37,384 nt of DNA from Verrucomicrobiota bacterium. Its GTDB lineage: Bacteria; Verrucomicrobiota; Verrucomicrobiia; Limisphaerales; UBA9464. The notes beneath the pieces were generated by a model that ran no database searches, was not told where the DNA came from, and worked only from the letters and a program-made list of their open reading frames with translations. The DNA lies in assembly GCA_947454705.1 (NCBI GenBank), contig CANGKZ010000047.1:1-37384 (forward strand), read 5' to 3'. Each line of letters starts with the position of its first letter. Within the stretch, counting starts at the first letter, position 1. Positions 2,009 to 19,715 of the stretch are shown one piece after another. Position numbers and translations under genes: made by a program.

Positions 2009-2047
2009 TTGGAGTGCGGTGGCAGAGCGGAGCGTCGATACCGCTTT
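2009..2047 (-). repeat. REP-like hairpin, long-loop type A
   Basis: The reverse strand has the family layout AAAGCG...CGCACTCCA. The stem is GCGGT (2016-2020) with ACCGC (2040-2044). The element continues to about 2101 with a second conserved part ending GCATCGCATCGG. Confidence 0.7.
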
Positions 2048-2159
2048 TGAAAACGCCTCCAAAACAAAAACCGACCTGTCGCATCGCATCGGTTCCAAGA
2101 ACATTTGCCTCTCCGCGCCTCTGCGGTTCCTACGCACCGTTCCCTGCCTCGCGCAGAGC

Positions 2160-2193
2160 AAAGCGGCGTGGCGCTGCGCTTCCCGCCGCACCA
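2160..2193 (+). repeat. REP-like hairpin, type B
   Basis: AAAGCGGCG leads into a loop and closes with CGCCGCACCA. The stem is GCGGCG (2163-2168) with CGCCGC (2184-2189). It is an inverted copy of the elements at 5349, 7871 and 11630. Confidence 0.7.
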
Positions 2194-2238
2194 AAGCGAC
2201 TGGCGACTCGGGTCTGCCCGATTGCGTTTTAACCTTCT

Positions 2239-3981
2239 CTACCGCCTCGGCCCACGCGGGCCGCGCTCGGGCCCGACCGGGCCGGCCAGCTTGCGAATGC
2301 GGAAGGAATCGAGATCGAACCACGCTTCCCCATCCGCCGCCCGGAGCTGGGCCACGATGGGAACCTCCGCCAGCGCGTCCCGGACAAAGAATTCAAACTC
2401 GATCGGCTGCCAGTCGGACGTACCAAGAATGGGTTTTTCCCCGCGCTCCCCGAGCACCTGCAATCCCGCACCTCCGCGGGAGTCGCCGGGGTCGGGCTGG
2501 ACACCGCTCACCTTCACCCGTCCCACCACGGAGTAGCGGCCATGCTCCAACCACAGACCCGTGTTCCACCCGCCGATGCAGCTGCCATCGTCCGCAGCGA
2601 TGCGCACGGTCCGACCCGCCTGCGGGCTGTTTGTCGGAGAGAAACTCGGTGCACCAAAAATGGTTTTTGGCTTCCAGTCCTTGAGCGTCACAAGGCCGTT
2701 GGTATCGAACACCGCCGGTTCGATCGGATGTTCCAGCTGTCGGTCGAGACTTGCCCCGCGTCGCGCAATCGATGATTTGAGCGCCGCAATCAGGGCCGGG
2801 TATCCGGCCGATTCTGCATGCTTGCCGTTGACCATCTCCGCCTGGATGCGATCGGCGATGAGCTGCACGCGGTTCGTAATGCGGGCGACATCAAACACGC
2901 GGGTCCGCAGGGTCTTCAGACGCTCGATGTACGCCCGGCGCAGCTCCGGATGCTTGATCACCTCTTCGGCGATCCTGCCCTGCATGCGCGGAAGAATGCT
3001 GCCCTCGGGACTCCAGAACATCTGATCCATTCCGTGGGGCATGAGGGTCAGCTTTCCGCTGGCCGGTTCGGAGTACAGCCGCCAGTTGTTGCGGTTCATC
3101 GGATAGCCGTCCCAATCCCAGACGATCACCTCCATCGCCATCAGGGAAAGGAACCGGTCCACATCGAGAATCTTGCGAAGCGCCTCCAGCTTCTTCGCCG
3201 GATCCGGCTCGTCCAGGGCGGCGACCAATTGCTTGCGATCCGCCTGGTCCGATTTCTCGTTCCCCACATTCACGCCCAGCGTCTCGGTCACGTCCCGCAC
3301 AAACCCGCCGTCGTAAAGAGTGCCCGAAGGATCCTGGAAGTGCCGCGAAACAAAATCGCGGTCCCACCCCTCCACCAGCACGTACATGCCAAGGTCCCTG
3401 CCGTTCACTTCCAGGCGCGCCTGCGTCGCACGCGGAACGGGCACGCCGGATTCGAGAAACAATTCCCGGCAGATCTGTTCGCTGAGAAAGGTCGGATCCT
3501 GAACCGAATTGTTCAGACTCAGTTTTCGCAGCCCGTGAAACCGCTGGCTCTTCACGTACTTGTCGAAGGCCAGCGTGAAGGCCGGCTTGTCCAAAAAGGG
3601 ACGGAAACTCCCCGCCGCGCCCTTCAGGTGAACCTGAACCCCGTTGTACACCCGATCGCCCTCCTGGAGCGTCCCCACCACATTCTCACGGGTCGATGAG
3701 GTCCCGAATCCGCCCTGCACCTTCGACAGCGTCTCCATCGCGTTCGTCGACAGAATCAGCTTCAGCTTCAGGATGGGGCCATTGGAGAAGAGGGCCGTGT
3801 ATTCGGCGTTGTCCTGCTTTACGGCTTTGGCGGAACTCTTCTTGTCCTTGGCCATTGCCGGCATCCATCCCACGCACAGCACGGCCGCGAGCATCAGGGC
3901 CGCGCGCATCCAATGGAACGAATTCATGGAAAGGACCGAGGCAGGAGAACCGGCCTGCCGTGAACGAAGGGCCGGAATCAT
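2239..3981 (-). CDS. Secreted CotH-family protein kinase with C-terminal beta-sandwich
   Basis: CotH proteins are atypical secretory kinases, best known for phosphorylating spore-coat proteins in Bacillus; in non-sporulating bacteria they are predicted to modify exported or surface proteins. The start at 3981 is chosen because AGGGAGG lies just upstream and the ATG overlaps the preceding stop (ATGA). An alternative ATG at 3927 begins directly at the signal peptide and lacks a Shine-Dalgarno. From 3981 the product is 580 residues with a signal peptide ending near MPAMA (44). The kinase core spans ~110-330, with RKLSLNNS, a WDWDGYPMNRNNWRLY motif near 288-303 and MPHGMDQMF near 314-322, the metal and catalytic region. 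Residues ~425-570 look like a carbohydrate-binding jelly roll. The C-terminal tail (GPVGPERGPRGPRR) is basic. It is translationally coupled to the upstream triple-domain gene. Confidence 0.82.
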   Translation of the reverse strand: MIPALRSRQAGSPASVLSMNSFHWMRAALMLAAVLCVGWMPAMAKDKKSSAKAVKQDNAEYTALFSNGPILKLKLILSTNAMETLSKVQGGFGTSSTRENVVGTLQEGDRVYNGVQVHLKGAAGSFRPFLDKPAFTLAFDKYVKSQRFHGLRKLSLNNSVQDPTFLSEQICRELFLESGVPVPRATQARLEVNGRDLGMYVLVEGWDRDFVSRHFQDPSGTLYDGGFVRDVTETLGVNVGNEKSDQADRKQLVAALDEPDPAKKLEALRKILDVDRFLSLMAMEVIVWDWDGYPMNRNNWRLYSEPASGKLTLMPHGMDQMFWSPEGSILPRMQGRIAEEVIKHPELRRAYIERLKTLRTRVFDVARITNRVQLIADRIQAEMVNGKHAESAGYPALIAALKSSIARRGASLDRQLEHPIEPAVFDTNGLVTLKDWKPKTIFGAPSFSPTNSPQAGRTVRIAADDGSCIGGWNTGLWLEHGRYSVVGRVKVSGVQPDPGDSRGGAGLQVLGERGEKPILGTSDWQPIEFEFFVRDALAEVPIVAQLRAADGEAWFDLDSFRIRKLAGPVGPERGPRGPRR

Positions 3982-5117
3982 CGCGCACCTCCCTTGGACG
4001 CCTTGTCCGAAGACGGGCCGCGGACCAGATCCAGTTTCAGTTTCCCGCCTCCCCCCTGCTCCCAGTTTCCCTCCAGCGTTTTTCCATCTGCGGCAAAAGT
4101 TCCGGTATAAGTGCCGCCGATCGCGCGATATTTCATCACCAAGGTCGAATTGGTGAACACCACACTGCTGGCGAGAATTGGCTGACCGCCCTGATCCAGG
4201 CTCTTCATGGTCGCCGCGTATGAGGCATCCGGTAAACGTCCCAGTTTCAGTTGGAGCCTCAGTTGCTGCTCCCCGACGGACAGCACCCCGCTCCACTCGC
4301 CGCGGGGATCGGCCTTCGACTTGGGATCCGGCTCAAACGTGGTCCCCTCCGGAAACGGGGTCACGGGCTTGGCTTCGCGCTTGAAGGTGATCGGCAATCG
4401 ATTCCCCGACAGCTTGAAGCCACCACCCAGCTCGTTGGCATCGGGAGTCAGCTTGGCCTCGAGCGAAATCCCGCGCATCGGCCATTTCAGCAACGCAAGC
4501 CCGTTGGTCATCACCACATCGGAAGTGGGCAGCCCCACCGCGAAATGCTCATAGTCATCCAGCTCCGCCACAAAATTCCCGTCCTTGAGCCGCCCAATTT
4601 TGAGACCGATCAGTTGCTTGGAGTTTTCATCCCCGGGAAGCATTGCCCGCCAATAACCTCGTAGATCCGGCTTCTCCCCGGGACCTGTGGCAAAGGACGG
4701 CTTTTCTTCGGGCTCATTGCCCTTCGGGTTCTTGGTAAAAACCACCGAGACCGGCCGGCCGCCCGGTCCCTCAGCGAATTGCCCGGTGATCTTCTTTCCA
4801 TCTGCGGAGACCGTTCCCTCCAGCGAGGTGCGAAACGCGTCCAGCTCCACCCGGATGTCGGGCGCGTGGTACAACACCGCCCCCACGGGCATGTCCTTTG
4901 CCCCCTGGTCCGGAACGTCCATCGAGGCGATCACCCGCTTGCCGTCCTCCGAACGCACCAACCGCAGGATCAGGCGCATCTTCATTTCGCCCATCCCGAG
5001 CATGCCATCCCAGCGGCCGACGAGATCCAGCGTGCTGCTCGTGGATTTGGCCCACGCTGCGCCGGGGGAAAGGCAAAGCCCCGCACTCAAAAGAAAAACA
5101 GAAAGCCGGTGATTCAT
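3978..5117 (-). CDS. Secreted protein with three tandem copies of a ~95-residue beta domain
   Basis: The 379-residue product begins with a clear signal peptide (cleavage near GAAWA, residue 23). The rest is three copies of one domain at about 32-128, 154-250 and 275-372. Each starts with G-x-W-x-G/A-x-L, has a run of alternating hydrophobics, a mid motif like SLDQGG, and ends with a DG-K-x-L-x-G-x-W/F segment. I recognise this domain as the small N-terminal module that precedes alpha/beta hydrolases in many acidobacterial and verrucomicrobial proteins, but no hydrolase follows here. The first gene of a two-gene operon, it overlaps the CotH-like kinase by 4 bp and could be its partner or substrate (inference). 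No name can be given. Confidence 0.75.
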   Translation of the reverse strand: MNHRLSVFLLSAGLCLSPGAAWAKSTSSTLDLVGRWDGMLGMGEMKMRLILRLVRSEDGKRVIASMDVPDQGAKDMPVGAVLYHAPDIRVELDAFRTSLEGTVSADGKKITGQFAEGPGGRPVSVVFTKNPKGNEPEEKPSFATGPGEKPDLRGYWRAMLPGDENSKQLIGLKIGRLKDGNFVAELDDYEHFAVGLPTSDVVMTNGLALLKWPMRGISLEAKLTPDANELGGGFKLSGNRLPITFKREAKPVTPFPEGTTFEPDPKSKADPRGEWSGVLSVGEQQLRLQLKLGRLPDASYAATMKSLDQGGQPILASSVVFTNSTLVMKYRAIGGTYTGTFAADGKTLEGNWEQGGGGKLKLDLVRGPSSDKASKGGAR

Positions 5118-5342
5118 GATTCAAGAACTGAGCTGGAGCCTGCCGAACCGTCGTGGAGGAGCCTGGGTGCCTGCCGTGAAAACGATTCCAATACGACCCC
5201 TCAGACCCGACAAAGTTGCAGCAAAAATCCGATGCGCAGCAATTCTCTTCAACTTTCCGCGGCTCCGCTGACTGCCGCTCCTGAGGACAGTGGCAAAAGG
5301 AGATCGACTGAGCCCCAAAACGAGACGAGTCGCTTGTCACCT

Positions 5343-5378
5343 TGGAGTGCGGCGGGAAGCGGAGCGCCACGCCGCTTT
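5343..5378 (-). repeat. REP-like hairpin, type B
   Basis: The stem is GCGGCG (5349-5354) with CGCCGC (5370-5375), flanked by GGAGT and CTTT, the inverse of the family flanks. Confidence 0.7.
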
Positions 5379-5503
5379 GCTCAACGCCAACCGCGCAACC
5401 GGGCGAATGAACCGCAGAGGCGCGCAGACGCAGAGGGGTTTTAGGGGACGCTTTTGACACCGATGCGATGTCATCGGTCGGTGCGACACCACGAACGGTT
5501 TCG

Positions 5504-5541
5504 AAAGCGGTGTCGACGCTGCGCTCTGCCACCGCACTCCA
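5504..5541 (+). repeat. REP-like hairpin, type A
   Basis: The stem is GCGGTG (5507-5512) with CACCGC (5530-5535), preceded by AAA and followed by ACTCCA. The upstream part (5460-5500) matches the conserved second half of the element at 2009-2101, inverted. Confidence 0.75.
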
Positions 5542-5749
5542 CAGGCCCAGGGCGACTACCCGAACCGCGAAAACACTGGGCCCGCCCCCGGGAAGCCCAT
5601 TTTTGGTACTCCAGCAGAACCATTTTTCATTTCTAATTGGGCATTCTGAATTGGCCGCTCCCTCCCCATCCTGTATCCAGCATCCAGCATCTTTCGATCG
5701 ATCTGCGATCTCCGAGCTCCCAGTTTCAGTTTACCCTCCCGCCGCGAGC

Positions 5750-6442
5750 ATGAATCCGACCCCTCGGACCGATCCCAACGACGGCGTGATCTTCTACACC
5801 CGGGCCGATGCCATGAGGCTCACCCCGCGCGAGTACGAGGACTGGGTGTACGCCCGCGAAACCCCAAAGGTGGACGAGGTCCGGATTGTCGATTCGGTGC
5901 GGCTCAACCGGATCCTGACCAAGTGCCCGGTCTGGGTTCCCTTTGTCTTCTGGCCCCCGATCATCGCGTGGCTCCTCTGGCCCCTCACTCCCGGCAAATG
6001 CCTCGCGCTTCTGATCGGAGCCATCCTTTGGTTCCCGATCGAATACCTGTTCCACCGGTTTCTCTTCCACATGCCGGTGGTCAACAAGCCCACGCAGTTC
6101 GCCCATTTCTTTCTGCACGGCATCCACCACCTGGCGCCCGATGATCTGGATCACCTCGTCTCCCCGCCGTTGGAGCTCGGGGCTCAGGCCCTGGCCGTGT
6201 ACGGACTGCTGCGCGCGCTGCACGTCCCGCTTCCCGAGTGCGTACTCGCGGGAATCCTGATCCAATACCTTCGCTACGACCTCATGCACTACTCGCTGCA
6301 CGCCTTCGATCGCGAGCACTTGGAGCGCGTCCCGCTCCTCGGTGGATTCCTGCTCCGTTGCAAGCGCAACCACATGCTGCACCATTTCCACGACGCGCGC
6401 AGCCGCTACACCATCAGCTACCTCACCCCCTGGACGGAGTGA
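5750..6442 (+). CDS. Fatty acid 2-hydroxylase-like membrane di-iron protein
   Basis: This is an integral-membrane member of the fatty-acid-hydroxylase/sterol-desaturase superfamily, which uses a His-cluster di-iron site to hydroxylate lipid chains. The open frame starts earlier, but the ATG at 5750 follows the repeat region and gives a 230-residue protein of sensible size. Hydrophobic segments lie around residues 58-100 and 145-175. The histidine clusters are in the right order: HRFLFH, HGIHH followed by PDD and LVSPP, HYSLHAF, and HMLHHFHD near the C-terminus. The HGIHH-x3-D...LVSPP arrangement resembles eukaryotic FA2H/Scs7 2-hydroxylases, without their cytochrome b5 domain. The electron donor is unknown. 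The stop overlaps or nearly overlaps the next gene, an ALO-type flavin oxidase, so the pair is probably co-translated. Confidence 0.82.
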   Translation: MNPTPRTDPNDGVIFYTRADAMRLTPREYEDWVYARETPKVDEVRIVDSVRLNRILTKCPVWVPFVFWPPIIAWLLWPLTPGKCLALLIGAILWFPIEYLFHRFLFHMPVVNKPTQFAHFFLHGIHHLAPDDLDHLVSPPLELGAQALAVYGLLRALHVPLPECVLAGILIQYLRYDLMHYSLHAFDREHLERVPLLGGFLLRCKRNHMLHHFHDARSRYTISYLTPWTE

Positions 6443-6447
6443 TCCCC

Positions 6448-7743
6448 GTGCAACGGAACTGGTCCGGATCGGTTCAATTCAGTCCCGCAATCGTCGCCCA
6501 CCCGACCGACGAATCGGCGATTTCACGCCTCATTGCCGACGCGTCGGCACGCCGCAGCGGGATCCGCGTGGTCGGAAGCCGCCATTCCTTCACTCCGCTC
6601 ATTGCCACCGAGGACACCCTGGTCTCCCTGGATCGGTGGAGCGGTCTGATTGAAACCGATCCCACCCGGAACACCGCCACCGTCCGATCCGGAACCACGA
6701 TTCGTTCCCTCGGCCCCCTCCTGCGCGCGCAGGGCATGGGCATGGAGAATCTTGGAGACATCGATGTCCAATCCCTCGCGGGCGCGATTTCCACCGGCAC
6801 CCACGGGACCGGTGCGACGCTCGGAAACCTGTCCACGCAGGTGGAGGGACTCACGCTGATCACGGCCGACGGCTCGCGCCTGGAGTGCTCCGCCGAATCC
6901 GATCCCGACCTGTTCGACGCCGCACGACTCTCGCTCGGGCTCCTTGGCGTGATCACCCGCGTCAAACTTCGTCTGCGACCGGCCTACCGGCTTCATCTCG
7001 TCCAGCGGCGCGAACGACTCGACGATTGCCTCGCCCGCTTGGACTCCGCGGGAGCGATGAATCGGTATTTCGAATTCTACACCTTTCCCGGATCCGATTG
7101 GGTGCTGAGCAAGTCCATGAATCCCACCGCGGATCCGGTTCGCGATCACCCCATCCGGTCCTTCCTGAACGATGTGGTGTTGGAGAATGCGGGACTGAAT
7201 CTGCTGAGTGAACTCTGCCGCTGGTTTCCGAACACCTCCCTGCCCATCAGCCGCCTCGCCGTGCGGCTCGCCTCGGAATACGAGAAGATCCAGTGGAGCC
7301 ACCGATGCTTTGCCTCGCCGCGTTTCGTGAAGTTCAACGAGATGGAGTACTTCATCCCTCGGTCCTCCATGGCGGATTGCATCCGTGAGATTCAGCACTG
7401 CATTCGACGCGAAAACCACCACGTCCATTTTCCCATCGAATGTCGCATGGTCCGTGCCGACGACCTCTGGCTGAGCCCGGCGTATCAGCGGGACAGCGCC
7501 GTCATTGCAGTCCACATGTACAAGGGCATGGAATATCGGCGGTATTTCGAGGCCATGGAGTCCATCTTCCGAAACCACCAGGGCCGTCCGCACTGGGGCA
7601 AGATGCATTCACTCCGTGCTGATGATTTCACGGCGCTGTACCCAAAATGGAACGCCTTCCTGAGCCTTCGGGATCGCCTCGATCCGGCTGGCGTGTTCCT
7701 GAATGACTATCTCCGGCCGTTGTTTGGAACGGGGTCAGGCTGA
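6448..7743 (+). CDS. FAD-binding oxidase, D-arabinono-1,4-lactone oxidase family
   Basis: This belongs to the VAO/ALO family of flavoproteins that oxidise aldonolactones or related sugars, passing electrons to O2 or another acceptor. I chose the GTG at 6448, which has GGAG 8 nt upstream; the GTG at 6439 (GTGA overlap with the previous stop) is the alternative. The 431-residue product begins NWSGSVQFSPA, with VVGSRHSFTP (about 41-50) where the FAD-linking His (H46) sits; the family usually has GSGHS. NLGDIDVQSLAGAISTGTHGTG is the FAD pyrophosphate region (quoted in part: GDIDVQSLAGAISTGTHG). The ALO C-terminal domain ends with HWGKMHSL, LYPKWNAF and FLNDYLRPLFG, all typical. It forms a pair with the upstream lipid hydroxylase-like gene. 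The true substrate is not evident. Confidence 0.88.
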   Translation: MQRNWSGSVQFSPAIVAHPTDESAISRLIADASARRSGIRVVGSRHSFTPLIATEDTLVSLDRWSGLIETDPTRNTATVRSGTTIRSLGPLLRAQGMGMENLGDIDVQSLAGAISTGTHGTGATLGNLSTQVEGLTLITADGSRLECSAESDPDLFDAARLSLGLLGVITRVKLRLRPAYRLHLVQRRERLDDCLARLDSAGAMNRYFEFYTFPGSDWVLSKSMNPTADPVRDHPIRSFLNDVVLENAGLNLLSELCRWFPNTSLPISRLAVRLASEYEKIQWSHRCFASPRFVKFNEMEYFIPRSSMADCIREIQHCIRRENHHVHFPIECRMVRADDLWLSPAYQRDSAVIAVHMYKGMEYRRYFEAMESIFRNHQGRPHWGKMHSLRADDFTALYPKWNAFLSLRDRLDPAGVFLNDYLRPLFGTGSG

Positions 7744-8152
7744 TCCGGGCAGGACTCCAAAGTCCAAAGGCCAAGGGGCCTAATTCCTTGTAGCCGCCGC
7801 CGGAAGAAGGCGGATCCCCCAAACTTTCGAAGTCACCTGATGCAGGCCCGCGCCAAACCCATTTTGGAGTGCGGCGGGAAGCGGAGCGCCACGCCGCTTC
7901 GCTCAACGCCGACCCACCAACGGAGTTAAGAAACCGCAGAGGAGCGGAGGGATTCGGAGGAGGTGGTTGCAGATGCGGCACGACCGATCGGTTCCGCACT
8001 CTGTCGCCCCGCTGGGGCTTGGATGCTTGCTCCAAAACAACCCCGGGCTGAAGCCACGGGGCTATTTTCGGAAATGCAGCCACGGCGAAGAGTGAACCCG
8101 AGCCTCAAATCCAGTATCCAGCATCCGCGATCTTCGTCTCCCAATCTCCGCC
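7744..8152. repeat. Intergenic repeat mosaic between convergent genes
   Basis: No gene is visible. Contents: a short heptad-like run (CTCCAAA, GTCCAAA, GGCCAAG; about 7755-7778), a 159-bp block (7793-7951) repeated at 11552-11710, a partial REP-A fragment around 7985-8005, a sequence with GGGGCTTGG and an imperfect CCCCGGGCTGAAGCCACGGGG hairpin-like segment near 8040-8063, and a heptad run (CCAGTAT, CCAGCAT, CCGCGAT; about 8111-8131) ahead of the terminator of the next minus-strand gene. Confidence 0.65.
7793..7951 (+). repeat. 159-bp direct repeat, copy 1 (contains REP-B hairpin and GC module)
   Basis: Aligned without gaps at a constant offset of 3759 bp with 11552-11710, with about ten mismatches by eye. 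It contains the REP-like hairpin GCGGCG (7871-7876)/CGCCGC (7892-7897) and ends in AACCGCAGAGG. The two copies bracket the lyase-like gene 8246-11383. Confidence 0.85.
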
Positions 8153-8210
8153 CGAAAAAAAGACCCGCGGTGCCCCTTTCCGGCGTACCGGAACTGGAAC
8201 ACCGCGGGTG
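8153..8210 (-). terminator. Rho-independent terminator of the lyase-like gene
   Basis: On the minus strand, 36 bp after the stop, a 10-bp perfect stem ACCCGCGGTG/CACCGCGGGT (8200-8209 with 8163-8172) encloses an inner hairpin TTCCGG-TACG-CCGGAA and is followed by CTTTTTTT (8155-8162). It is the clearest terminator in the window. Confidence 0.9.
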
Positions 8211-8245
8211 TGAAATCCACAGCCCCAAAAGGCCGCGGTGGCGAA

Positions 8246-11200
8246 TCAAAGATGGAACAGCAGGACGCCCGCTGCGTCGGTCGTGACGGCCTGAGCGCCC
8301 GGGGGTTGTCCCGGAGTCACCTGAACCTGGATGCCACCGGCAACATTGACCGCAGTGATCGCGTACGACGTTCCCGGAGCGAGTCCGGTGACAAACACGT
8401 TCGCCACCGTCGAAGGCACCAGCAGCGTGGTTCCCTGGAATGCCACGGCGAGGTCCGTGGCGAAGAACACCGCGGTGTCCACGATCAACGCACCGTCAAA
8501 CGGAGTGCCGCCGATGCTCTGAACCAGCGACGCCGGATTCGGACTGGTCACCAGCGGATCCGTGCCCTGGAGCACGTGGAGGAAGCGCGTGTTGGTGGGC
8601 AGTGATGGGTCCTCCACCACGAGGCGGCCGGTCATCGATTCCATCTGCGCAATGTTGGAGATCGTCCCGCCTTCCGGCACGTAGGTGAGCGTGGCCGATG
8701 CCGGGAGCAGCGACTTTACGAAGAGGTGCTGCCCTCCGGGGCTGGTGGCAGATGCGAGCCGCGCCGTGGCATCAATCTGCGGGGGCATCGCAAAGTTCAC
8801 GTTGAATCGCTTGAACCCGTTGTGCAGGGAGACCGCGCGGTCGTACACCACCACGTGATCGCTGGTGAGCCAGAGGATCGAACGGCTGGCGTGCTGGATG
8901 TCGAGCGCCGCATTGGCCGGCGTCCAGATCGAGGGACGGTTGTAGAGCGCGGTCATGTCCGTGCTGGCGTAGGCGTATCCCGGTCCGGCACTCGCCGTCG
9001 TGACCGGATCCCCGGCGCTCATGCCGTTGTTCCACTGCGATCCATTGGGCCAGTACGGCGCCTCAAAATAGTTCAAATTCTGGGGCTTTCCGTTGGCGCA
9101 CCAATTTTGGAGCGCGAGGGAATTGTGCCACAACGACGACTGGCCATTACCGTTGTTGTCGTAGTTGCTCAGCTCCTTGGTCAGCCATTCGCCCTTGCGG
9201 TACAGCTCGAACTGGCCGGCGTCCCCGTCCTGGTGGTTGATGGATTCCCAGGAGCTGCGGAAGGTGAAGACCGAGGCATTCGGACTCCAATCGGTGCGGG
9301 CCAGCAGGCGGCCGTTGCCGGCATCGATGAACTGATTCGGATACGAGGGCCGCGGATCCGCGGCGGCAGGCTGCGTGGGATCGAGGAGGAAGAAGTACAG
9401 GATCGCGTTCTGCACCCCGTACGACGACGGCTGCTGGATGCGCTGATGCAGCAGCGGTGCCCCGCCCTCCACCGCATTCACGGCAAACCACTTCGCTGCA
9501 TCGCCGTTGGAGGTGTTGCCATTGCACTGGTCGAGCAGCGACTTGAGCGCGAACACCTGCATGAAATCAGGGGTAATCCACAACCGGAGCACATCGCCAT
9601 AGCTGGCCATGCGATAGAACGGTCCCATCCAGGATTGGTTCGCGAGGACGGTCGGGGCCGGGGCAATCGAGTTGGCAAAGCCGACCAGGTACCGGTCCCA
9701 CACGGGTGCCGACACGATCGACGCCTGCGGGCCGGAGATCGTGGGATCGGCAAACCCGGCCGTCTTCAGCGCCAGCATTTCACCCAGCACGTAGGAGAAG
9801 GCGTGACCATACAGGCCGCCCTCCGGCGAAAGACCGCCACTGGCAAGGCCAACGCTGGCGGACGGGGAAAGCCCCAGCGAACTCCGCACCACCGAGGGAT
9901 CCCCGAACATGGCGAACTGCTGGTACAGCCACGCCCCAGTGACGTTCGGAATGTAGCTGCGCAGGGAATTTCCAAGCACGGACAACGGCGTCGAGGCGGT
10001 CACCGCGGGGTCGTCCGCGGGATCGATGACGAGCGACATCAGCGTCAGCAGTCGCGCGTGTCCCGAGTAGTAATTGTTGGCCGCCACGCGATGCGCTCCG
10101 CCCGAGGGAAGTAGCGCGGTGCTGTTCATCACACCGATCGGCGACGGATGATCTCCACCGCAGACGTACGCGTTCAGGCAGTCGTTCGCCCAAATCAGGA
10201 AGGCATCCCGGGCCAGCACCTTGTCGGAGGCCGACAGGATGTCATTCCCCTGCCCATCCTTCGCGTTGTAGATCCAGTCCAACGCCAGTGGCCAGGCTTC
10301 GCTGTTGGCGTTCGCGCGGTTGAACAGCGAGAACATCGGATCGCGGAACGGCATGCCGGTGGCGTGTCCCTTGACCACTTCGGTGAAGGCGTTGACCAGC
10401 AGGTTGCGCGCGCGCTGCGCATGAAGGATCCGGGCGTTCGGGTCCGGATCGATCAGCGAGAACAGCGCAAACACCAGGGCGTGCTGCTCGGAAAGTTCGC
10501 CGGTGTAGCCCTGCGTATCGCCGAAGTCAGGATAGACGGGATTCACCACGCCGCCGGGGTAGAACGACGAATTGTAAACCACCGACGACTTATTCAACAC
10601 GACACGCAGGCTTTGATACACCGGATTGTTGGTGTTCGCCCAGGCGCGCAGGCGCGGGAGGTCATTCGTGGTGATCCACAATCGCGGATGCGAAGCCACC
10701 GGCTGAGGCACCGGGGCCGGGGTGTAGAAAACGGCCGACTCCGTCACCGCCGAGGACGGCATGGTGAACGTGGTGGTCGAGGCAAAGCTGCTGCCGAGCG
10801 CCACGTTGCCGTTCCACTGCTTGGACCACTGCCCTGCCGGAGGCGTCGAGGCCACCAGCGTGATCGTCGTCCCGGGCGCAAAATTGCCGCTGACCACCCC
10901 GTTGGCCGTCCCCCCGGAGACCGTCACCGTGTACGTGCTCGGAGGTGGCGGAGTGGAGGTTCCGCCCCCAGTTCCAGTGCCGCCGGTGGTGCCTCCCGGA
11001 GGGGGATTCACCTTCACCGTAAACGCGTTGTAGGCGGTGGCTCGGGTGGAATCCGACACCTTCACATAGGCCGAAAACGGATAACTGTAGATCCAGCTTC
11101 CCGACGCCGTGGGCATGCCTCCCAGAATTCCGTTGGTCGGATTCAGGGCCAACCCCGGGGGAAGCCCGCCGGATTGAATCGACCAGGAATAAGGCGGCGT

Positions 11201-11457: not shown

Positions 11458-11551
11458 CACTACGAGAAACATTTCCTAAGGTTACAGGGGGCAGGCGAAA
11501 AAACTTTTGACGCGGTGGAACGGATCCACGACGGGCACGAAAGCACCAGCC

Positions 11552-11710
11552 GCCGCCGCCGGAAGAAGGCGGATCCCCCGAACTTCCGAAGTCACCCGAT
11601 GCAGGCCCGCGCCACGCCCTTTTTGGAGTGCGGCGGGAAGCGGAGCGCCACGCCGCTTTGCTCAACGCCGACCCAGCAACAGAGTTAAGAAACCGCAGAG
11701 GCGCGGAGAA
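11552..11710 (+). repeat. 159-bp direct repeat, copy 2
   Basis: Partner of 7793-7951. It contains REP-B stem GCGGCG (11630-11635)/CGCCGC (11651-11656) and the GC module AACCGCAGAGGCGCGGAG. Confidence 0.85.
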
Positions 11711-11943
11711 GGGATTGAATCTGGAAAGCATGAAAGCAGGACCGGAAAACCCAGCATCCAGCTTCGTTCATTCGCCCCATCTCCGATCTCCCATCTGCCA
11801 TCTCCTCCGTTTCTTTTCTCCTCTGCGCCTCCGCGTCTCTGCGGTTGCTTCCAAGGTGCGGTCTGTAACTTCACACGGGGCCCGCAAACGAATCTTGTCC
11901 CGATGCGATGGTACCGGTCGGTGCAACACCACGGACGAATTCC

Positions 11944-11981
11944 AAAGCGGTGTCGACGCTCCGCTCTGCCACCGCACTCCA
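11944..11981 (+). repeat. REP-like hairpin, type A
   Basis: Stem GCGGTG (11947-11952) with CACCGC (11970-11975), flanked by AAA and ACTCCA. The element extends left to about 11899. Confidence 0.75.
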
Positions 11982-12048
11982 AAAGCGCGCCCCATCCAGC
12001 ATCCAGCATCCAGCAACCAGCATCCTCACCCTCTCCCCTCTCCGATCC

Positions 12049-14823: not shown

Positions 14824-14962
14824 GGGTGAAGTGAGAGGACCGAAAAAATGAAAAATTGGGGAATTAAAAATGAAAAATTACCGAGCCCGGGAGCCTGTCA
14901 CGAACCGCTCCATCAGTAAGCCGGCTTCCGGATTCCCATTTTTAATTTTGAATTGGTCATTT
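14824..14962. repeat. AT-rich heptad arrays forming an inverted repeat between two minus-strand genes
   Basis: AATTAAAAATG (14862-14872) and CATTTTTAATT (14937-14947) are perfect 11-bp inverted arms. The right arm is part of a four-heptad array (TTTTAAT, TTTGAAT, TGGTCAT, TTCTAAT; 14940-14967) that overlaps the last codons of the upstream PQQ-repeat gene. The left arm lies in AAAATGA/AAAATTG heptads (about 14846-14879). Confidence 0.6.
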
Positions 14963-16507
14963 CTAATTCTTTAGCGCCCCAAAACACCACAGCGCCTTCG
15001 ACGTCCGAAACACAACAGCATGGTCCGCCGTGGCGAGCGAGGTGTTGGCGGATTCGCCCACGGGGTTGACCGAGAGCACCTCAAACTTGGGCGCGGCTTT
15101 CAAAACGATCACGTCGCCCGCGCGGTTCGGCACGTAGATCCGGCCCTCGGCGAGGATCATCGACGACCAGCTTTCACTCTGCGATCCGGATCCATTGAGC
15201 CGCTCCTGCCAGACCGTCTTGCCAGTGGCGATTTCGTAGCACTGTGCGACGCCGTCGTTGGCGATGGAGTACACATGACCGTCGTGCACCACCCCGGTTC
15301 CGAAGGCGTTTTTAACCCGGTCCACACGCCACACGCGTCCGGACTCGCTCACATCGCCACTGCCCCCGGGCTTGAGTCCGATGGCACTGCCTCCCGCCGG
15401 TCCGCCGCTGGAAGCGATCAGGGTTTCGCCATTCCACAAAGGCGTGGCGTACACCGCGCCGCCAATGCCCTTGCTGACCCAGAGCTGCTTGCCGGTGGCC
15501 GGATCATAGGCCACCACCCGGAACGGCATGCTGGCGATCAATTCATCGTGCCCATTGACGCGAATCACGGCCGGCGTGCTCCAAGATCCGCCGCCACCAC
15601 CTCCGCCGCGTCCGCCCGGTCCGCGACCTCCACCTGGGCCACCCGGACCACCACGTCCGCCACCAGGCCCGCCTGGCCCGCCCGGTCCACCTGCCGGAGC
15701 AGATCCACCGCCGGGGGCCCCCGGGGCCGCAGCCACCGCAGGACCACCCGCAGGTGCGGCACCCCCCGGAGCTCCGGGTCCGCCGGGTCCGCCGGGTCCG
15801 CCTGGCCGACCCGGACCGCCCGGGCCTCCGCGGCCGGGACCGCCCTGCTGCTGTTCCTCGGGTTCCGGCTGGGGCGGTTTGGCTTCCCAGACGGTTTCGC
15901 CAGTCTTGCGGTTCAGGGCGATGAGACGCGCATTTTCACCCGGACCAAAATTGACGATGCAAAGATCCCCATGCAGCACCGGAGAGACGGCAGTTCCGAA
16001 CATGTGGTTCAACTTGCCCAGATCGCGGTGCCAGACCTCCTTGCCCGACAGGTCATAAGCAAACACCCCCGGGGATCCGAGGCAGACATACACCCGTTCG
16101 CCATCGGTGGCGGGGGTTCCGGCGCAGTACGGATTATTCTCCTGAGTTTGCTCGGGTTCCGTGTAGGTCACGCCCGATTGCCAGAGCATCTTCCCGGTCG
16201 CGAGATCGAAGCACATCAAGGTCCGACGATTCTCCCCCGGCACGGCCTGGGCGATGAACACACGATCTTTCCAAACGATCGGCGATCCGTTTCCGGCCGA
16301 GGGAAGCTCGGTGCGCCAGAGAACGTTTTCCTTGTCCGACCAGCGGATCGGCAGGCCCTTTTCCTTGGACACCGCGGTTCCATCCCCTCCGCGCCAACCG
16401 GTCCAATTCGCCCCCAAAACGGGCACCGTGCAGACGAGAGCGACACCGAGGTGGAGAATTGGAAGCACCGCACGTGCGGAAACGGAGGAAAGGATCGGGG
16501 TTCTCAT
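14963..16507 (-). CDS. Secreted PQQ-repeat beta-propeller protein with a collagen-like insert
   Basis: The 514-residue product starts at the ATG at 16507; the frame extends to 16903 but that part lies in repeats and has no signal peptide. The signal peptide ends near VLGAN (32-34). PQQ-enzyme-like blades are clear: NWTGWRGGDG, FDLATGKMLW, YDLSGKEVW, LNRKTGETVW, YDPATGKQLW and YEIATGKTVW. Verrucomicrobial and planctomycete paralogues of this kind are BamB-like secreted propellers with no proven cofactor. Residues ~221-308 form a Gly/Pro-rich collagen-like stretch (GGPGGP and GGRG units) inserted between blades, immediately after EEQQQ. The propeller may bind a sugar or serve in an exported complex; no catalytic function can be claimed. 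An upstream motif GGGTAACCAGGGTGAAGA lies at 16618-16635. Confidence 0.82.
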   Translation of the reverse strand: MRTPILSSVSARAVLPILHLGVALVCTVPVLGANWTGWRGGDGTAVSKEKGLPIRWSDKENVLWRTELPSAGNGSPIVWKDRVFIAQAVPGENRRTLMCFDLATGKMLWQSGVTYTEPEQTQENNPYCAGTPATDGERVYVCLGSPGVFAYDLSGKEVWHRDLGKLNHMFGTAVSPVLHGDLCIVNFGPGENARLIALNRKTGETVWEAKPPQPEPEEQQQGGPGRGGPGGPGRPGGPGGPGGPGAPGGAAPAGGPAVAAAPGAPGGGSAPAGGPGGPGGPGGGRGGPGGPGGGRGPGGRGGGGGGGSWSTPAVIRVNGHDELIASMPFRVVAYDPATGKQLWVSKGIGGAVYATPLWNGETLIASSGGPAGGSAIGLKPGGSGDVSESGRVWRVDRVKNAFGTGVVHDGHVYSIANDGVAQCYEIATGKTVWQERLNGSGSQSESWSSMILAEGRIYVPNRAGDVIVLKAAPKFEVLSVNPVGESANTSLATADHAVVFRTSKALWCFGALKN

Positions 16508-16617
16508 GGTCAATGGGGCGTTTGCGAGGATCAGAATTCGCGTACGGAAAATAAATGCAAACCAGCGGGAGTCCTTGGCGAAGACAGCCGGGCTCCAAAA
16601 CTGGATACGTGGAATTT

Positions 16618-16635
16618 TCTTCACCCTGGTTACCC
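16618..16635 (-). promoter_or_regulatory. Shared motif GGGTAACCAGGGTGAAGA upstream of the PQQ-repeat gene
   Basis: It begins about 110 bp upstream of the ATG at 16507. It shares GGGTAAC-NN-GGGTG with the palindrome region at 17615-17635, and CAGGGTGAAGA with 11447-11457. A regulatory role is inference. Confidence 0.4.
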
Positions 16636-16690
16636 GCGGGGAGGGTTGAATTTGGAAAGCATGAAAACAGGAACGGGCTGGGCTCGGGCA

Positions 16691-16716
16691 AAAGCGGTAG
16701 AGGACTACCGCAGTCC
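16691..16716 (+). repeat. REP-like hairpin, short-loop type D (left half of doublet)
   Basis: Stem GCGGTAG (16694-16700)/CTACCGC (16705-16711), loop AGGA, flanks AAA and AGTCCA. Confidence 0.8.
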
Positions 16717-16765
16717 AAGACCTGTCGAATCTCGCCGCGGGGGTGAGGAACTCGCGAACGCGTCG

Positions 16766-16793
16766 TGGAGTGCGCCAGTCCTCTGGCGCTTTC
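16766..16793 (-). repeat. REP-like hairpin, short-loop type D (right half of doublet)
   Basis: Stem GCGCCAG (16772-16778)/CTGGCGC (16783-16789), loop TCCT (AGGA on the other strand), flanks GGAGT and TTT. Compared with the left half, both sides of the stem changed together while loop and flanks are kept. Confidence 0.8.
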
Positions 16794-16960
16794 GAATGCA
16801 GGACTGGGTTCAACTCTCTCCTCCCGCCCAATCCTCCATCTCCGATTTTCCCCAACCGCAATTTACCCTCGGGCAGCTCCTCCGCGGTTTCTTCCTCCTG
16901 CATTCCTGCGTTCCAAATTCAATCCCTCCGCAACGCAGTGCTCCACTTTTGACATCACCC

Positions 16961-17012
16961 CAAAAAACGAAACACCCCAGACACGAGCAGCGCAGCGCTC
17001 GGCCTGGGGTGG
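16961..17012 (-). terminator. Rho-independent terminator of the small Gly-rich protein gene
   Basis: On the minus strand CACCCCAG (17011-17004) pairs with CTGGGGTG (16980-16973) around a GC-rich inner fold, then TTTCGTTTTTT follows. It lies about 60 bp after the stop at 17070. Confidence 0.85.
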
Positions 17013-17069
17013 TTCACCGCTGCGTCGGGAATGAAGCCCGACGCAGGATCAATGTTAGGAATCGATCAA

Positions 17070-17510
17070 TTAGACTCCGCCCTTCGGGGTGGTCGAAACC
17101 GTCGTGGACCGGGTCTGAATCACCGCACCAGTGGCGACATCCACCACAGTCACGGTGCACAGGTAAAGCTGACGGGAAGGCACCGCCACGGTGATCTTGC
17201 CATTGAGGGGCGCGGCACCGTCGGTATAGACGACCGCCTTGGTGGTATAATTGGCGATGGTCACGGTCACATTGACCGCCTGACTGGCATCGCAGGGCTT
17301 CACACCCCAACCCATTTGAACGGAGCCGAGGCCGGTTTCACCGACCTTGCCGTCTCCCTTGACGGTCAGGCTGGTGATCGGTTGGCACACCGCAACGCCG
17401 CCGCCGCCACCACCACCGCCACCGGTTCCGATCTCGGCGGAAAGGGTCACAACTTGGGAGGCCAACGACACGAGGGCCAGCAAGCCGACGGTGCAGAATT
17501 TCTTGTTCAT
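17070..17510 (-). CDS. Small secreted hypothetical protein with a poly-glycine segment
   Basis: The 146-residue product begins with a signal peptide (MNKKFCTVGLLALVSLASQ..., cleavage near residue 25), followed by a Thr-Gly then nine-glycine run (about 29-38). The mature part is Val/Thr-rich and beta-like, with three cysteines (in AVCQP, VKPCDA and YLCTV), so one disulfide is likely. I do not recognise the family. The ATG at 17510 is the only sensible start. The gene has its own strong terminator and a palindromic element 105 bp upstream, so it looks like a separately regulated exported product. The glycines are encoded by a CCG/CCA trinucleotide tract, which could vary in length without frameshift. 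Confidence 0.7.
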   Translation of the reverse strand: MNKKFCTVGLLALVSLASQVVTLSAEIGTGGGGGGGGGVAVCQPITSLTVKGDGKVGETGLGSVQMGWGVKPCDASQAVNVTVTIANYTTKAVVYTDGAAPLNGKITVAVPSRQLYLCTVTVVDVATGAVIQTRSTTVSTTPKGGV

Positions 17511-17614
17511 GTTTCCTGATCTATTGGGGTTCGAATTGCGTGCGTCGCACTTGGGTAGATTAAGTTCGACGTCTTCAAACTCCCCGGATCCAGCGGATCG
17601 AACAAAGCCATTTT

Positions 17615-17632
17615 GGTAACACCCCTGTTACC
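17615..17632. promoter_or_regulatory. Operator-like palindrome GGTAACA-CCCC-TGTTACC
   Basis: A perfect 7-bp inverted repeat with a 4-bp spacer lies 105 bp upstream of the small secreted protein gene. Size and symmetry fit a dimeric repressor site; a hairpin in RNA is equally possible. Confidence 0.5.
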
Positions 17633-17646
17633 CTGCGCCGAAGCGG

Positions 17647-17770
17647 AGGATCGAATCTGGAAAACAGGAAAGCAGGATGGGGAGCTGGAATCGGACAGCA
17701 GAAGAGATGCTGGAAACAGGTCGCCCCCAATTTCTAATTTCTCATTCTCAATTTTTAATTCTCCGACACC
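17647..17770. repeat. CAGGAAA module and AT heptad array at the end of hipA
   Basis: 17647-17680 carries the CTGGAAAACAGGAAAGCAGGA-type module (8-bp step). 17728-17762 is an AT array with 7-bp step (TTTCTAA, TTTCTCA, TTCTCAA, TTTTTAA), which runs into the last codons of hipA at 17755. Confidence 0.6.
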
Positions 17771-19053
17771 CGGTGGGTCTTTTGAATTTTGCGAGTCCAC
17801 GCCTCCGTGACCCGCGCCTCCGCCGCAAACTCCGGCCATCGCTTCACCGCCGCACACACCTCTTCCAGAATCGTCGCAGCCCTGCCCCGCTTCATCAGCG
17901 CCGACTTCGCGCACGCCTCAAAATCGGCGCGCGTAAACCCATCCCGCTTTCCATTCATCGTCATCTGATGCGTCGAGGTCCACGATCCCGACGGATTGTA
18001 GCCGTAGGTCACATCGAACGCCGGCGCGAGCGACCACTCGCCCTGCTGGTTCATGAGGAACGCGATGTTCTTCACATGATCGTCCTGATTCCGCGCCACG
18101 ATGTTAAAGGCCATTCGGCGGAACTGCTCCTCCACCGCGGCCATCGGCATCTTCAACTGCCGAATCGTCAACAGGGCCTGTTCATAGGCATGAGCCCCGG
18201 CCTGGTTGAAATCGAAATGCCCCAGCGCGCCGAGCGATTGCATGTGCAGCTTTGCGCCCCCCTCGCGACGGTCGAATCGGCACGTCATGAAGTGCCGACG
18301 CCCGTTCTCCTCCAGCAGCCGACACTCGCTCATGGTGATCCCCGCCGACCGCGCCATGAGATGATACGCATACTCGATGGCACCAAATCCCTTGGGGTCT
18401 TCCAGTTCCTTGTCCTTGTTGCCGGACACGCCGTCAAATTTCAGCAGCCAGTATTCGAATCCGTCCCCGGCCTCGATCTGACCCGACCGCACTTCGTTGG
18501 TGGTCCGGTTCCACGCAATCACGGCCTTCGCCCGCGCCCCTCCCGCCGAAGTGCCCACACGCAAAATGTCGCGCAGCGCCTTCTCCTTTCCGGCCTCGTG
18601 GAAATGGCCCCGCAGGTCGCTCCGATGCGTGAGTACCTCGCCCGCCAGACGCACCAGCGCATCGATCTCGATCTTCGTCGCCGTGCGCGGCCTGGGTCCC
18701 AACACCGGAGCATATTCCAGCGCACCCATTCCCCGCGTGCCGGTGTAGCAAAGCCTCTCCACCGCATTGAAACTCGCCGGTTTCCGCCCCTGCGTGGCCA
18801 GCCAGGCATCGATCAGCGCGTTGCCGAATTTGTCTGGCAACGAATCCGCCAGCATTCCAGGCAGGCCGTGAAAAGTGGCACGAGGCAGCGTCGGAAACTC
18901 ATACACCCGGTCGCTCAACGGCATGGTCAGCGGCGAAAGCTCGATCCCACTTTGCGCGAACTCGGGATCGTACTGAAACGCCGCCACCTCGCGTCCCTCG
19001 GCAAGTGACACCGCGCCGATGGTCCGTCCCCAGAGCTGGACCTTGGCAATCAT
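17755..19053 (-). CDS. hipA: HipA-family serine/threonine kinase toxin
   Basis: The 432-residue product is of typical HipA length. In the E. coli type II system HipA phosphorylates glutamyl-tRNA synthetase and induces dormancy; HipB neutralises it and represses the operon. Visible features: the N-terminal HipA domain (LSDRVYEFPTLPRATFHGLPGMLADSLPDKFG, in part GMLADSLPDKFG), the phosphate-binding loop GTSAGGARAKAV, the YWLLKFDG strand, the catalytic NQDDHVKN (322-329; D324 corresponds to the catalytic Asp by position) and LAPAFDVTYG, the metal-binding DFG-like motif. All key residues are present, so it should be active. The start ATG at 19053 overlaps the hipB stop by 4 bp. The substrate may differ from that of E. 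coli. Confidence 0.92.
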   Translation of the reverse strand: MIAKVQLWGRTIGAVSLAEGREVAAFQYDPEFAQSGIELSPLTMPLSDRVYEFPTLPRATFHGLPGMLADSLPDKFGNALIDAWLATQGRKPASFNAVERLCYTGTRGMGALEYAPVLGPRPRTATKIEIDALVRLAGEVLTHRSDLRGHFHEAGKEKALRDILRVGTSAGGARAKAVIAWNRTTNEVRSGQIEAGDGFEYWLLKFDGVSGNKDKELEDPKGFGAIEYAYHLMARSAGITMSECRLLEENGRRHFMTCRFDRREGGAKLHMQSLGALGHFDFNQAGAHAYEQALLTIRQLKMPMAAVEEQFRRMAFNIVARNQDDHVKNIAFLMNQQGEWSLAPAFDVTYGYNPSGSWTSTHQMTMNGKRDGFTRADFEACAKSALMKRGRAATILEEVCAAVKRWPEFAAEARVTEAWTRKIQKTHRVSEN

Positions 19054-19415
19054 TGAGGATCTCCCCAGGTCCAGGCCTTGGATTTACCGGCGGCCTTCGT
19101 GCCTCCGCTTCCTGTCCCTGAAGCACGCCGACGCTGACGGTTCTGAAGCTTCAACAGTTCCATCGGACTCGCCGTTTCCTCGGGAACCAGCGCCTCCAAC
19201 CGATCCATCAAGCCCAGCACCCGGCAAATCCGGACAAAGCCAGACAGCTGCGTCGCCGCCACGCCCAATTCGAGGCGCTGCACCGTCCGCAACCCCAACC
19301 CCGCCTGCTCCGCGAGCTGCTGTTGGGTGAGGTTCTTCGACAACCGAAGCCGGGCCACGCGCCCACCCAGCTGCGTCAGAAACGCCTCATCGGTCAGACC
19401 GGTTCCTTCATTCAT
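19050..19415 (-). CDS. hipB: HipB-like antitoxin, XRE-type helix-turn-helix
   Basis: This is the antitoxin and autorepressor of the pair. I use the ATG at 19415 (121 residues); a GTG at 19433 would add six residues. The helix-turn-helix spans about 18-75: RVARLRLSKNLTQQQLAEQAGLG (part: LRLSKNLTQQQLAEQAG), LRTVQRLELG, then LSGFVRICRVLGLMDRLEALVPE. The C-terminus is a basic Ser/Gly-rich tail (QNRQRRRASGTGSG...), probably disordered, as in other HipB proteins where it guides degradation. The stop overlaps the hipA start (ATGA). A cluster of similar 14-mers in the AT-rich upstream DNA may be its binding sites. Confidence 0.88.
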   Translation of the reverse strand: MNEGTGLTDEAFLTQLGGRVARLRLSKNLTQQQLAEQAGLGLRTVQRLELGVAATQLSGFVRICRVLGLMDRLEALVPEETASPMELLKLQNRQRRRASGTGSGGTKAAGKSKAWTWGDPQ

Positions 19416-19459
19416 ACACGCCACTTGTGACACAAAGCGGGTGCATATTCAAGTTTATC

Positions 19460-19549
19460 CGCCACTTAAGGCGTATTACTGTTTTTTATTTAGACGCCTT
19501 TCTAGACGTTTTAAAGGCCTCTCATGGGCTTTTTGCGCCTTTTCAGACG
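19460..19549 (-). promoter_or_regulatory. Three iterated operator-like 14-mers upstream of hipBA
   Basis: On the minus strand: CGCCTTAAGTGGCG (19473-19460), CGTCTAGAAAGGCG (19508-19495) and CGTCTGAAAAGGCG (19549-19536). They fit CGYCT-N4-(A/T)GGCG, a half-palindromic pattern. Start-to-start spacings are 35 and 41 bp. AAGTGGCG also recurs just ahead of the hipB ATG. HipB proteins bind several operators upstream of their operon, which fits. Confidence 0.6.
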
Positions 19550-19674
19550 CTTTCTTTAATTCTGCTAAGTTGCGCCTCCGTTCCGGGACTCAGGACGCGG
19601 AACCAGATTGGATCGAATTTGAAAACCGGGAACGCAGGAAAAGAAAACTCGGAGATCGAAAGAGATGCGCGCCG

Positions 19675-19715
19675 TTGGAGTGCAGTGGCGGAGGGGCTCG
19701 TCGACACCGCCGTTG
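19675..19715 (-). repeat. Degenerate REP-like hairpin
   Basis: TTGGAGTGCAGTGGCGG...CACCGCCGTT keeps the outer layout of type A with changes in stem and flank. Confidence 0.45.

Follow-up and report, generated by a model that had tools for sequence, protein, structure and literature searches.

Covarying hairpins with constant flanks in a Verrucomicrobiota genome: probable REP elements and the HUH-Y1 RAYT clade that accompanies them

Known REP systems and the hairpins of the window

Repetitive extragenic palindromic (REP) elements of E. coli are short, high-copy palindromes that occur in pairs of opposite orientation in bacterial interspersed mosaic elements (BIMEs) and are accompanied by the HUH-Y1 protein TnpAREP (subclass 2.2, PDB-code: 4ER8). 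In Pseudomonas, Xanthomonas and Stenotrophomonas (subclass 2.5, Bertels group 3), opposed hairpin pairs, the REP doublets forming hairpins (REPINs), appear in lineage-specific bursts, and a REP-associated tyrosine transposase (RAYT) lies near repeats of its own type. We analysed a stretch of 37,384 nt from a Verrucomicrobiota bacterium (contig CANGKZ010000047.1, here C47; “the window” is this whole stretch), taken from a draft genome (G000) of 5.45 Mb in 80 contigs that is 95.7% complete. The window contains ten hairpins with constant flanks, which are very probably REP elements, many of them in REPINs, and the substrate of a cognate HUH-Y1 RAYT of the same genome, the C20 RAYT. The evidence consists of the observed number of copies, the covarying stems, the boundaries of the units and the association with RAYTs and, on the protein side, of the fold match and the catalytic residues.

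The window's hairpins share with the E. coli elements the short, high-copy palindromes, the pairs of opposite orientation and the HUH-Y1 protein, for which E. coli TnpAREP is the closest solved structure by sequence and by fold. In contrast, the conserved letters before the stem, the 5' foot, read NTGGA[G/C]T here and not GTAG, and Q95 and R104 (E. coli numbering) are F/H and T/S. With subclass 2.5 the hairpins have in common the opposed pairs, the lineage-specific bursts, a RAYT near its own type and a GGAG adjoining the stem (GT[AG]GGAG-stem, PMC2817692), but GT[AG]G is mostly absent here and the RAYT motif is NHYH instead of DH[LF]H. IS200/IS605 elements likewise combine the HUH-Y1 fold with a hairpin and a 5' guide; unlike them, the gene of the RAYT clade described below is not multi-copy (one in G000), and the hairpins of that genome far outnumber it.

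TnpAREP subclass 2.8 of Cyanobacteria has the motifs NHYH, W[YH] and YIHYNP (PMC6006769, Table 1) and a median length of 199 aa, compared to NHYH, W[FH] and 189 aa here. Our clade may belong to this subclass, for which long REPs with GT[AG]G feet have been published and from which it is set apart by that description only. TnpAY1 class 3 of Planctomycetes, Acidobacteria and Proteobacteria (PMC6006769) is a known case of a non-GTAG foot (CnGA), with up to about 600 hairpins per genome and phyla that are partly shared with ours, but its motifs are Y----Q and NHVH where the clade has NHYH and Y-H-N[PA], and the feet differ. In the verrucomicrobium Opitutus terrae, REP repeats and dimers are described as GTAG-17, GTAG-19 and GTAG-20, the last mostly with GTGG (PMC3733652); they are set apart from our hairpins by the description of their GTAG/GTGG tag, and an overlap is possible. 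The variant features here are the relaxed or changed foot, the accompanying RAYT clade and its spread over phyla.

All ten hairpins described in the original prediction were located in the window:

2010..2047, minus strand: type A hairpin, foot TGGAGT at 2010-2015 and TTT side at 2045-2047
2160..2195, plus strand: type B hairpin with a degenerate flank, ACCAAA replacing ACTCCA
2010..2195, unstranded: REPIN-like unit of A(-), spacer and B(+), feet outward
5343..5378, minus strand: type B hairpin
5504..5541, plus strand: type A hairpin, making a B(-)A(+) unit with 5343-5378
7865..7900, minus strand: type B hairpin, solitary
11624..11659, minus strand: type B hairpin
11944..11981, plus strand: type A hairpin, 284 nt away from 11624-11659
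16691..16717, plus strand: type D2 hairpin, stem GCGGTAG, foot TGGACT
16766..16792, minus strand: type D1 hairpin, stem GCGCCAG, foot TGGAGT; the D2 hairpin lies 48 nt off, feet facing
19676..19714, minus strand: decayed type A copy with a mismatched stem and without AAA

The hairpins are 38 nt long in type A, 36 nt in type B and 27 nt in type D, and types A and B on the one hand and type D on the other look like separate sub-families. Apart from the degenerate copies at 2160 and 19676, they carry AAAGCG on one side and CGCACTCCA or CGCAGTCCA on the other, so that the opposite strand reads 5'-TGGAGT-GCGNNN...NNNCGC-TTT-3'; the “close variants” of the flank that had been claimed are CGCAGTCCA at 16691 and TGCACTCCA at 19676. 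As regards the intergenic position claimed for every copy, among the ten window open reading frames (ORFs) that were scanned, no Pfam-supported domain overlaps a hairpin; several mechanical ORFs that overlap hairpins fall outside that scan. The type D pair lies within the longest reading of a PQQ-repeat ORF at 14963-16903(-), for which residue 133, with a signal-peptide-like N-terminus, is a better start, and the pair is upstream of that start.

Copy number, stem covariation and paired units

In the window, CGCACTCCA is matched 27 times with at most one mismatch, compared to a mean of 13.9 in shuffled windows (0 of 100 shuffles reach 27), and of its eight exact sites the one at 27771 lies outside the ten hairpins. 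Across the genome, the exact pattern AAAGCG-N8..30-CGCACTCCA has 254 sites and its reversed form one, the pattern AAAGCGG-N18..30-CCGCACTCCA (GCGG type) has 213 sites and its reversed form none, and type D with either foot has 57 copies, or 60 if the foot letters are left open. A chance origin of the repeats was rejected on the shuffles of the window and the reversed-pattern counts in the genome. The 3' TTT is present in 50 of 52 sites picked without requiring it and is therefore no artefact of the query. With lengths of 27-38 nt, the hairpins are high-copy short palindromes within the published range of REP elements (21-65 nt, PMC6006769). In eight genomes of the genus, with G000 given first, the GCGG type counts 213, 0, 18, 0, 0, 4, 0 and 3, and type D with open foot letters 60, 5, 0, 18, 26, 21, 20 and 4. 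The swing of the GCGG type from 0 to 213 within one genus fits the expectation of lineage-specific bursts.

Do the stems vary in a compensatory manner? Ten copies are too few to decide this. A scan of named genomes in which AAAGCG-N8..36-CGCACTCCA was the sole requirement returned at least 116 stretches. Among the matches listed, 159 were kept after nested ones had been dropped, 73 of them exactly 27 nt long, and at least six contiguous pairs, of which the query itself dictates three, were found in 62 of the 73 27-mers, 6 of 10 26-mers, 9 of 17 28-mers and 14 of 59 stretches of other lengths. The titles of the records listed name Verrucomicrobia, Kiritimatiellae, Lentisphaerae, Planctomycetes, Acidobacteria, Chloroflexi, Armatimonadetes, a parachlamydia and others, and these cross-phylum matches contain some chance matches. 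The 27-mers listed include 51 distinct sequences, in which GCG/CGC was the only stem requirement. Each of their four free pairs occurs in three to four Watson-Crick types; 91.6% of cells are paired, compared to 74.4% after shuffling, 67 cells are changed on both sides, compared to 19.7, and the covariation score is 0.443, compared to 0.129, with 0 of 500 shuffles as high in any of these three measures and a best slid control of 0.151. The compensatory changes are thus clear in this larger set, which could have dissolved them. When folded alone as single-stranded DNA, each of the type D and type B copies tested (two and one, respectively) adopts the drawn stem.

The arrangement of the copies was analysed in 0.82 Mb of the genome together with the C20 stretch, a sample holding 33 A, 19 B, 6 D1 and 5 D2 copies. 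The inverted pairs reported from the window recur there as in REPINs and BIMEs: 46 of the 63 copies lie within 400 nt of another copy and 17 are solitary. Thirteen A/B pairs have their feet outside, with gaps of 86-135 nt and one of 284 nt, and in six cases neighbours 18 or 20 nt apart have their feet facing. The type D copies form three D1/D2 pairs with facing feet exactly 48 nt apart and one D1-D1 pair with feet outside at 59 nt, and three A-A neighbours share one strand. A search of the genome with positions 900-3300 of the window returned 38 further near-whole A-spacer-B matches (70-79% identity) and 13 partial ones. Of the near-whole matches, 35 start at window positions 2000-2014, around the outer foot at 2010. 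The end of 21 matches falls precisely on 2191, the point at which the B copy of the window turns degenerate. The unit boundaries coincide with the outer feet. The whole-unit matches, like the type D stem classes and the genomes with at least five sites given below, were counted by eye.

Could the hairpins chiefly be host elements, such as terminators or stabilisers of mRNA 3' ends, with a merely historical association with a RAYT? They are G+C-rich with a TTT after the hairpin on one strand, the pair at 2010-2195 lies between the convergent genes 1902(+) and 2239(-), both Pfam-supported, and copies remain in genomes without a detected RAYT. On the other hand, the change from 0 to 213 GCGG-type copies among species of one genus and the paired copies arrayed near RAYT genes speak against a host function. 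Terminators do not include a conserved foot on the side away from the T, there are mostly only three or four T, and no Rfam family was found in the window at gathering scores. We consider this explanation unlikely.

The RAYT clade and its association with the hairpins

A RAYT-like Y1 gene flanked by such hairpins had been predicted, and it is present in the genome as the C20 RAYT (ORF L197:469-1038), an HUH-Y1 protein of 189 aa that is preceded by A, B and A hairpins and followed by an A hairpin. With the NF047646 profile (cut-off 80 bits) the genome yields three matches, the C20 RAYT at 84.5 bits, a C30 RAYT at 76.6 and an IS200 TnpA at 23.9-24.4. Some members of the C20 clade also fall just under this cut-off (L206 at 76.4, L211 at 75.9). 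The PF01797 profile recovered only the IS200-type TnpA and missed the C20 RAYT, which NF047646 recovered. The single match of the C20 RAYT in a PDB sequence search is E. coli TnpAREP (4er8, E 2.7e-5). A structure model of 11 clade sequences (mean pLDDT 71.8, pTM 0.69) has its best fold match in the same entry (E 5.4e-8, TM 0.53/0.59, r.m.s.d. 12.1), with IS200/IS605 transposases next, and the HUH motif NHYH and the catalytic Tyr of the clade RAYTs align with those of 4er8. The NP of the class 2 signature Y---NP occurs in 8 of 12 own-family members, while L197, L199, L224 and L210 have NA.

The IS200 TnpA (G000:C26:62346-62693, L001) was rejected as the mobiliser. It scores 77.5 bits as IS200 and below 80 as a RAYT, and no TGGAGT-type hairpin lies within 1.5 kb of it. 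The C30 RAYT, in the stretch L219:5778-7565 and below the cut-off as given above, carries DHLH and a WQ motif. It sits amid a different repeat, GTGGA-GGGCGTGG-TTCCAC-CCACGCCC, of which the genome holds 87 copies at up to one mismatch, with stems in two versions, GCGTGG/CCACGC and GCGCGG/CCGCGC.

To compare RAYTs and hairpins across genomes, we built a profile (A1) from 11 aligned family members with 54-65% identity to L197. Its scores drop from 169 to 90 bits with none between, and the clade was cut at 110. One uniform finder then searched for a flanked hairpin within 700 nt; it had been loosened before this test, after misses at L203 and L210 on one or both sides. Excluded beforehand were L218 and L270 (the L197 site), L239 (L192) and L236 (an IS200 TnpA stretch). 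Thirteen of the remaining 108 loci had no A1 match and gave no row, leaving 95 rows; these 13 had shown no flanking hairpin in an earlier survey. All 53 clade genes are adjoined by a hairpin, 45 of them on both sides; among the 42 other Y1 genes, 5 have one on a single side and 0 are flanked on both (Fisher, 3e-21 for any side and 3e-19 for both sides). The reversed-flank control gives 2 of 53 and 0 of 53 at the clade genes. By origin of the locus, hairpins flank 12 of 12 own-family genes (12 on both sides), 12 of 12 from genomes picked for the pattern (9) and 29 of 29 chosen by relatedness alone, without use of the pattern (24). The 12 family loci are not independent, because A1 was built from hairpin-flanked own-family genes. 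Around the clade RAYTs, the stems vary from locus to locus while the flanks are constant.

These numbers also bear on the proposal that the hairpins are ends of classical insertion sequences (IS), akin to miniature inverted-repeat transposable elements, that lie near Y1 genes by chance. Inverted pairs with near-constant spacers would suit such ends, as would the IS200-type TnpA in the same genome, but that gene lacks a hairpin of this kind within 1.5 kb, and a hairpin at every clade RAYT, with none at 37 of the 42 other Y1 genes, makes the proposal highly improbable.

In 288 genomes of the phylum, for each of which at most 11 candidates were scored, 33 have A1 relatives at E<=1e-30, as the single such match in 26 of the 33. 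At least one site is found in 32 of these 33 genomes and in 81 of the 255 others; five or more are found in 25 of the former and 21 of the latter (p 7e-17 for this second comparison, uncorrected for relatedness). The clade is present in records of five phyla. Of 30 genomes picked for the hairpin pattern, nine have a clade gene that scores at least 169 bits, and the titles of these nine name Phycisphaerae, Planctomycetia, Terriglobia, Acidiferrum, Chloroflexi, Anaerolineales, Deltaproteobacteria and, twice, Verrucomicrobia. In a tree of 63 rows the clade stands apart from the other Y1 genes, with a support of only 90/62. The phyla are mixed, with the deltaproteobacterial L247 beside an own-phylum row and Chloroflexi in two places, and horizontal spread of the clade across phyla is likely. 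The interpretation as REP elements with a RAYT, as originally proposed, is supported by hundreds of copies where few would have spoken against it, by the covariation, by the C20 RAYT and by the flanking of all clade loci examined.

Type D needs separate consideration. It may be a sub-family that a D-type RAYT, like those of sister species, once dispersed and whose enzyme is now absent from G000. Clade RAYTs flanked by D-like hairpins occur in G003, G004, G006, G025 and G047, none of the three NF047646 matches of G000 (the A/B RAYT, the C30 RAYT and the IS200 TnpA) is flanked by D, and 57 copies nevertheless persist. The assembly is incomplete, however, and the A/B RAYT could accept D stems because the flanks are alike. 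We give this history of type D even chances.

The 5' foot, the guide and what may follow from them

The foot was tallied for 195 hairpins lying close to clade genes, of which 50 out of 53 are represented, with a finder that allowed one mismatch to TGGAGT/TGGACT and so would miss strongly different feet. Counted from the stem, T is found at position -6 in 178, G at -5 in 194, G at -4 in 195, A at -3 in 192, G or C at -2 in 152 and 39, and T at -1 in 192, while position -7 is free (T 115, A 28, C 28, G 24). The rule for the clade is thus NTGGA[G/C]T. It departs from the GTAG/GTGG foot of REP elements and agrees with it in part if NTGG is taken as a relaxed GTGG. GTAG or GTGG is carried by the REPs found automatically in PMC6006769 and by the GTAG families of PMC3733652. 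The foot may be GGA[G/C] adjoining the stem, or GTGG without need for the first G, and the REPs of Pseudomonas and Xanthomonas, which have GT[AG]GGAG before the stem (PMC2817692), connect these two readings.

Q95 and R104 are well conserved in subclasses 2.2, 2.4, 2.5 and 2.7, which have GTAG REPs (PMC6006769). In 12 own-family members these two residues, which are reported to contact GTAG, are replaced, Q95 by F or H and R104 by T or S, whereas the C30 RAYT (L219) keeps Q and R; the position of H101 is T in both. The repeat around L219 is a useful but not a clean control, because its GTGG foot also contains TGGAG.

If the foot is an ordinary GTGG guide with a dispensable first G (NTGG, then A[G/C]T), the guide system is unchanged in kind. 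The near-constant T, G and G at -6 to -4 and the 24 hairpins with G at -7, which yield GTGG at 13 of 50 loci, point in this direction, and so do the GT[AG]GGAG of Pseudomonas and Xanthomonas and the tolerance of the motif's first positions in Marinomonas (PMC8266576). Yet positions -3 (A) and -1 (T) are conserved like TGG, and G is the rarest of the four letters at -7. The chances of this reading come close to even without quite reaching it.

A more far-reaching proposal, which we regard as rather doubtful, is a clade in five phyla with a shifted guide, in which GGAG or GGAC at the stem forms the foot, the altered residues read it, and the two hairpins of one unit can have different feet. In type D, the foot goes with the stem in all 57 copies: 26 with stem GCGGTAG have AGTCCA (foot TGGACT) and 31 with other stems have ACTCCA (foot TGGAGT), GGTAG occurring with GGAC, and GCCAG, GGCAG and GCGAG with GGAG. 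These copies are near-identical and probably derive from two parents, and therefore the link amounts to one linkage observed many times. A similar pairing of stem and foot surrounds the RAYTs L199, L204 and L215, but it is not general, because both stems share a foot at L206 and L214, and TGGACT is the sole foot at L211 and L224. If the guide is indeed shifted, such REPINs would resemble IS200/IS605 in having real left and right ends, each with its own guide, and the rule from foot to cleavage site would be readable from nature. Among the matches listed, a literature search with the letters of the repeat returned no REP paper by title or start of abstract, and one on RAYT/REP with the phylum names or GGAG returned no title or abstract on such a family. 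The string “GGAG” has no occurrence in PMC3733652 and none at word starts in PMC6006769; it occurs 16 times in PMC2817692, there within GT[AG]GGAG consensus REPs in the passages shown.

Several observations count against the preferred reading of the hairpins as REP elements that serve a cognate RAYT, or against parts of it. In the 51 27-mers, two of the five measures of covariation (the number of doubly changed pairs and that of further pair types) are not above shuffles, and for the type A copies at 2010 and 19676 the drawn stem is not the minimum-energy fold as DNA. No insertion event or clean empty site was found in the one region compared, whose two neighbour genes lie apart in relatives. 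Of the 30 genomes selected for the pattern, 21 lack a clade RAYT at 169 bits or more, and the 21 of 255 own-phylum genomes with at least five sites and no detected clade RAYT include one with 76; draft assemblies, limited scoring or loss of the RAYT may account for such sites. No D-flanked RAYT was found in the 95.7% complete assembly of G000. The clade gene L210 is interrupted by an internal stop, the only clear case among 18 flagged clade rows, since the stop in the other 17 lies at or a few residues from the end of the match, and the hairpin-flanked clade RAYT at L221:1064-1624 has a damaged HUH motif, NYYH for NHYH, and by its sequence is perhaps catalytically dead. Of the 195 clade hairpins, 24 (13 loci) have GT[AG]G at most 12 nt from the stem, and the other 171 lack it. 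Finally, the residue change alone implies no change of foot, because subclass 2.8 has W[YH] at the position of Q95 and yet a GT[AG]G foot (PMC6006769).

By analogy with the REPtrons of E. coli, Stenotrophomonas and Marinomonas, we hypothesize that the C20 RAYT would bind the folded single strand 5'-NTGGAGT-GCGNNN..NNNCGC-TTT-3', use the 5' foot as a guide, cut at a nearby CT and so move the element, dispersing copies between genes. The stems would then covary because the RAYT needs the folded form, and the flanks and the three bottom base pairs would be fixed as common parts for recognition and cleavage. TnpAREP cuts at CT, and the Marinomonas enzyme cuts at CA as well; the site is selected through complementarity to parts of GTAG (PMC8266576). 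That the 5' tetranucleotide acts as a guide was shown in this one flexible system, Marinomonas; a change of the motif shifted the cleavage site there and not in the other two systems tried (PMC8266576). GGAG would retain the A3G4 said to select CT, and a CT sits at the 3' foot, where CGC meets TTT, making the step from C to TTT a candidate cleavage site. A GGAC foot would predict cleavage at GT.

Apart from the hairpins, the window holds other repeats. A GGATTGAATCTGGAAAGCATGAAAGCAGGA-like repeat has four copies near hairpins, 71-100% alike, at 11712-11745, 16643-16676, 17648-17681 and 19610-19643. A second kind of dispersed repeat consists of CCACAGATGGACACAGATTCACACAGAT inverted pairs about 80 nt apart (22306-22338/22417-22449 and 27491-27521/27606-27636), and short-period repeats (CATCCAG, AGATGGC, ATTTTTCATTTTGAATT) occupy 156-184, 197-239, 5620-5691, 11982-12024, 14936-14978, 30272-30368 and 37159-37249. 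The contig ends at 9-149 and 37244-37384 are identical inverted stretches of 141 nt that resemble the start of a transposase gene, which may be of IS3 type, and the contig probably breaks at IS copies. At 17755-19053(-) lies a HipA-like kinase with both its N- and C-terminal domains (Pfam).

Automatic searches that look for GTAG/GTGG alone, such as the RNAMotif step described in PMC6006769, would miss most of these repeats. With another or relaxed foot, fixed flanks, covarying stems and changed contact residues in one clade, the rule by which RAYTs find and move REPs becomes testable, and the second RAYT of the same genome, with its GTGG-bearing repeat, adds a contrast for testing the rule of the foot.

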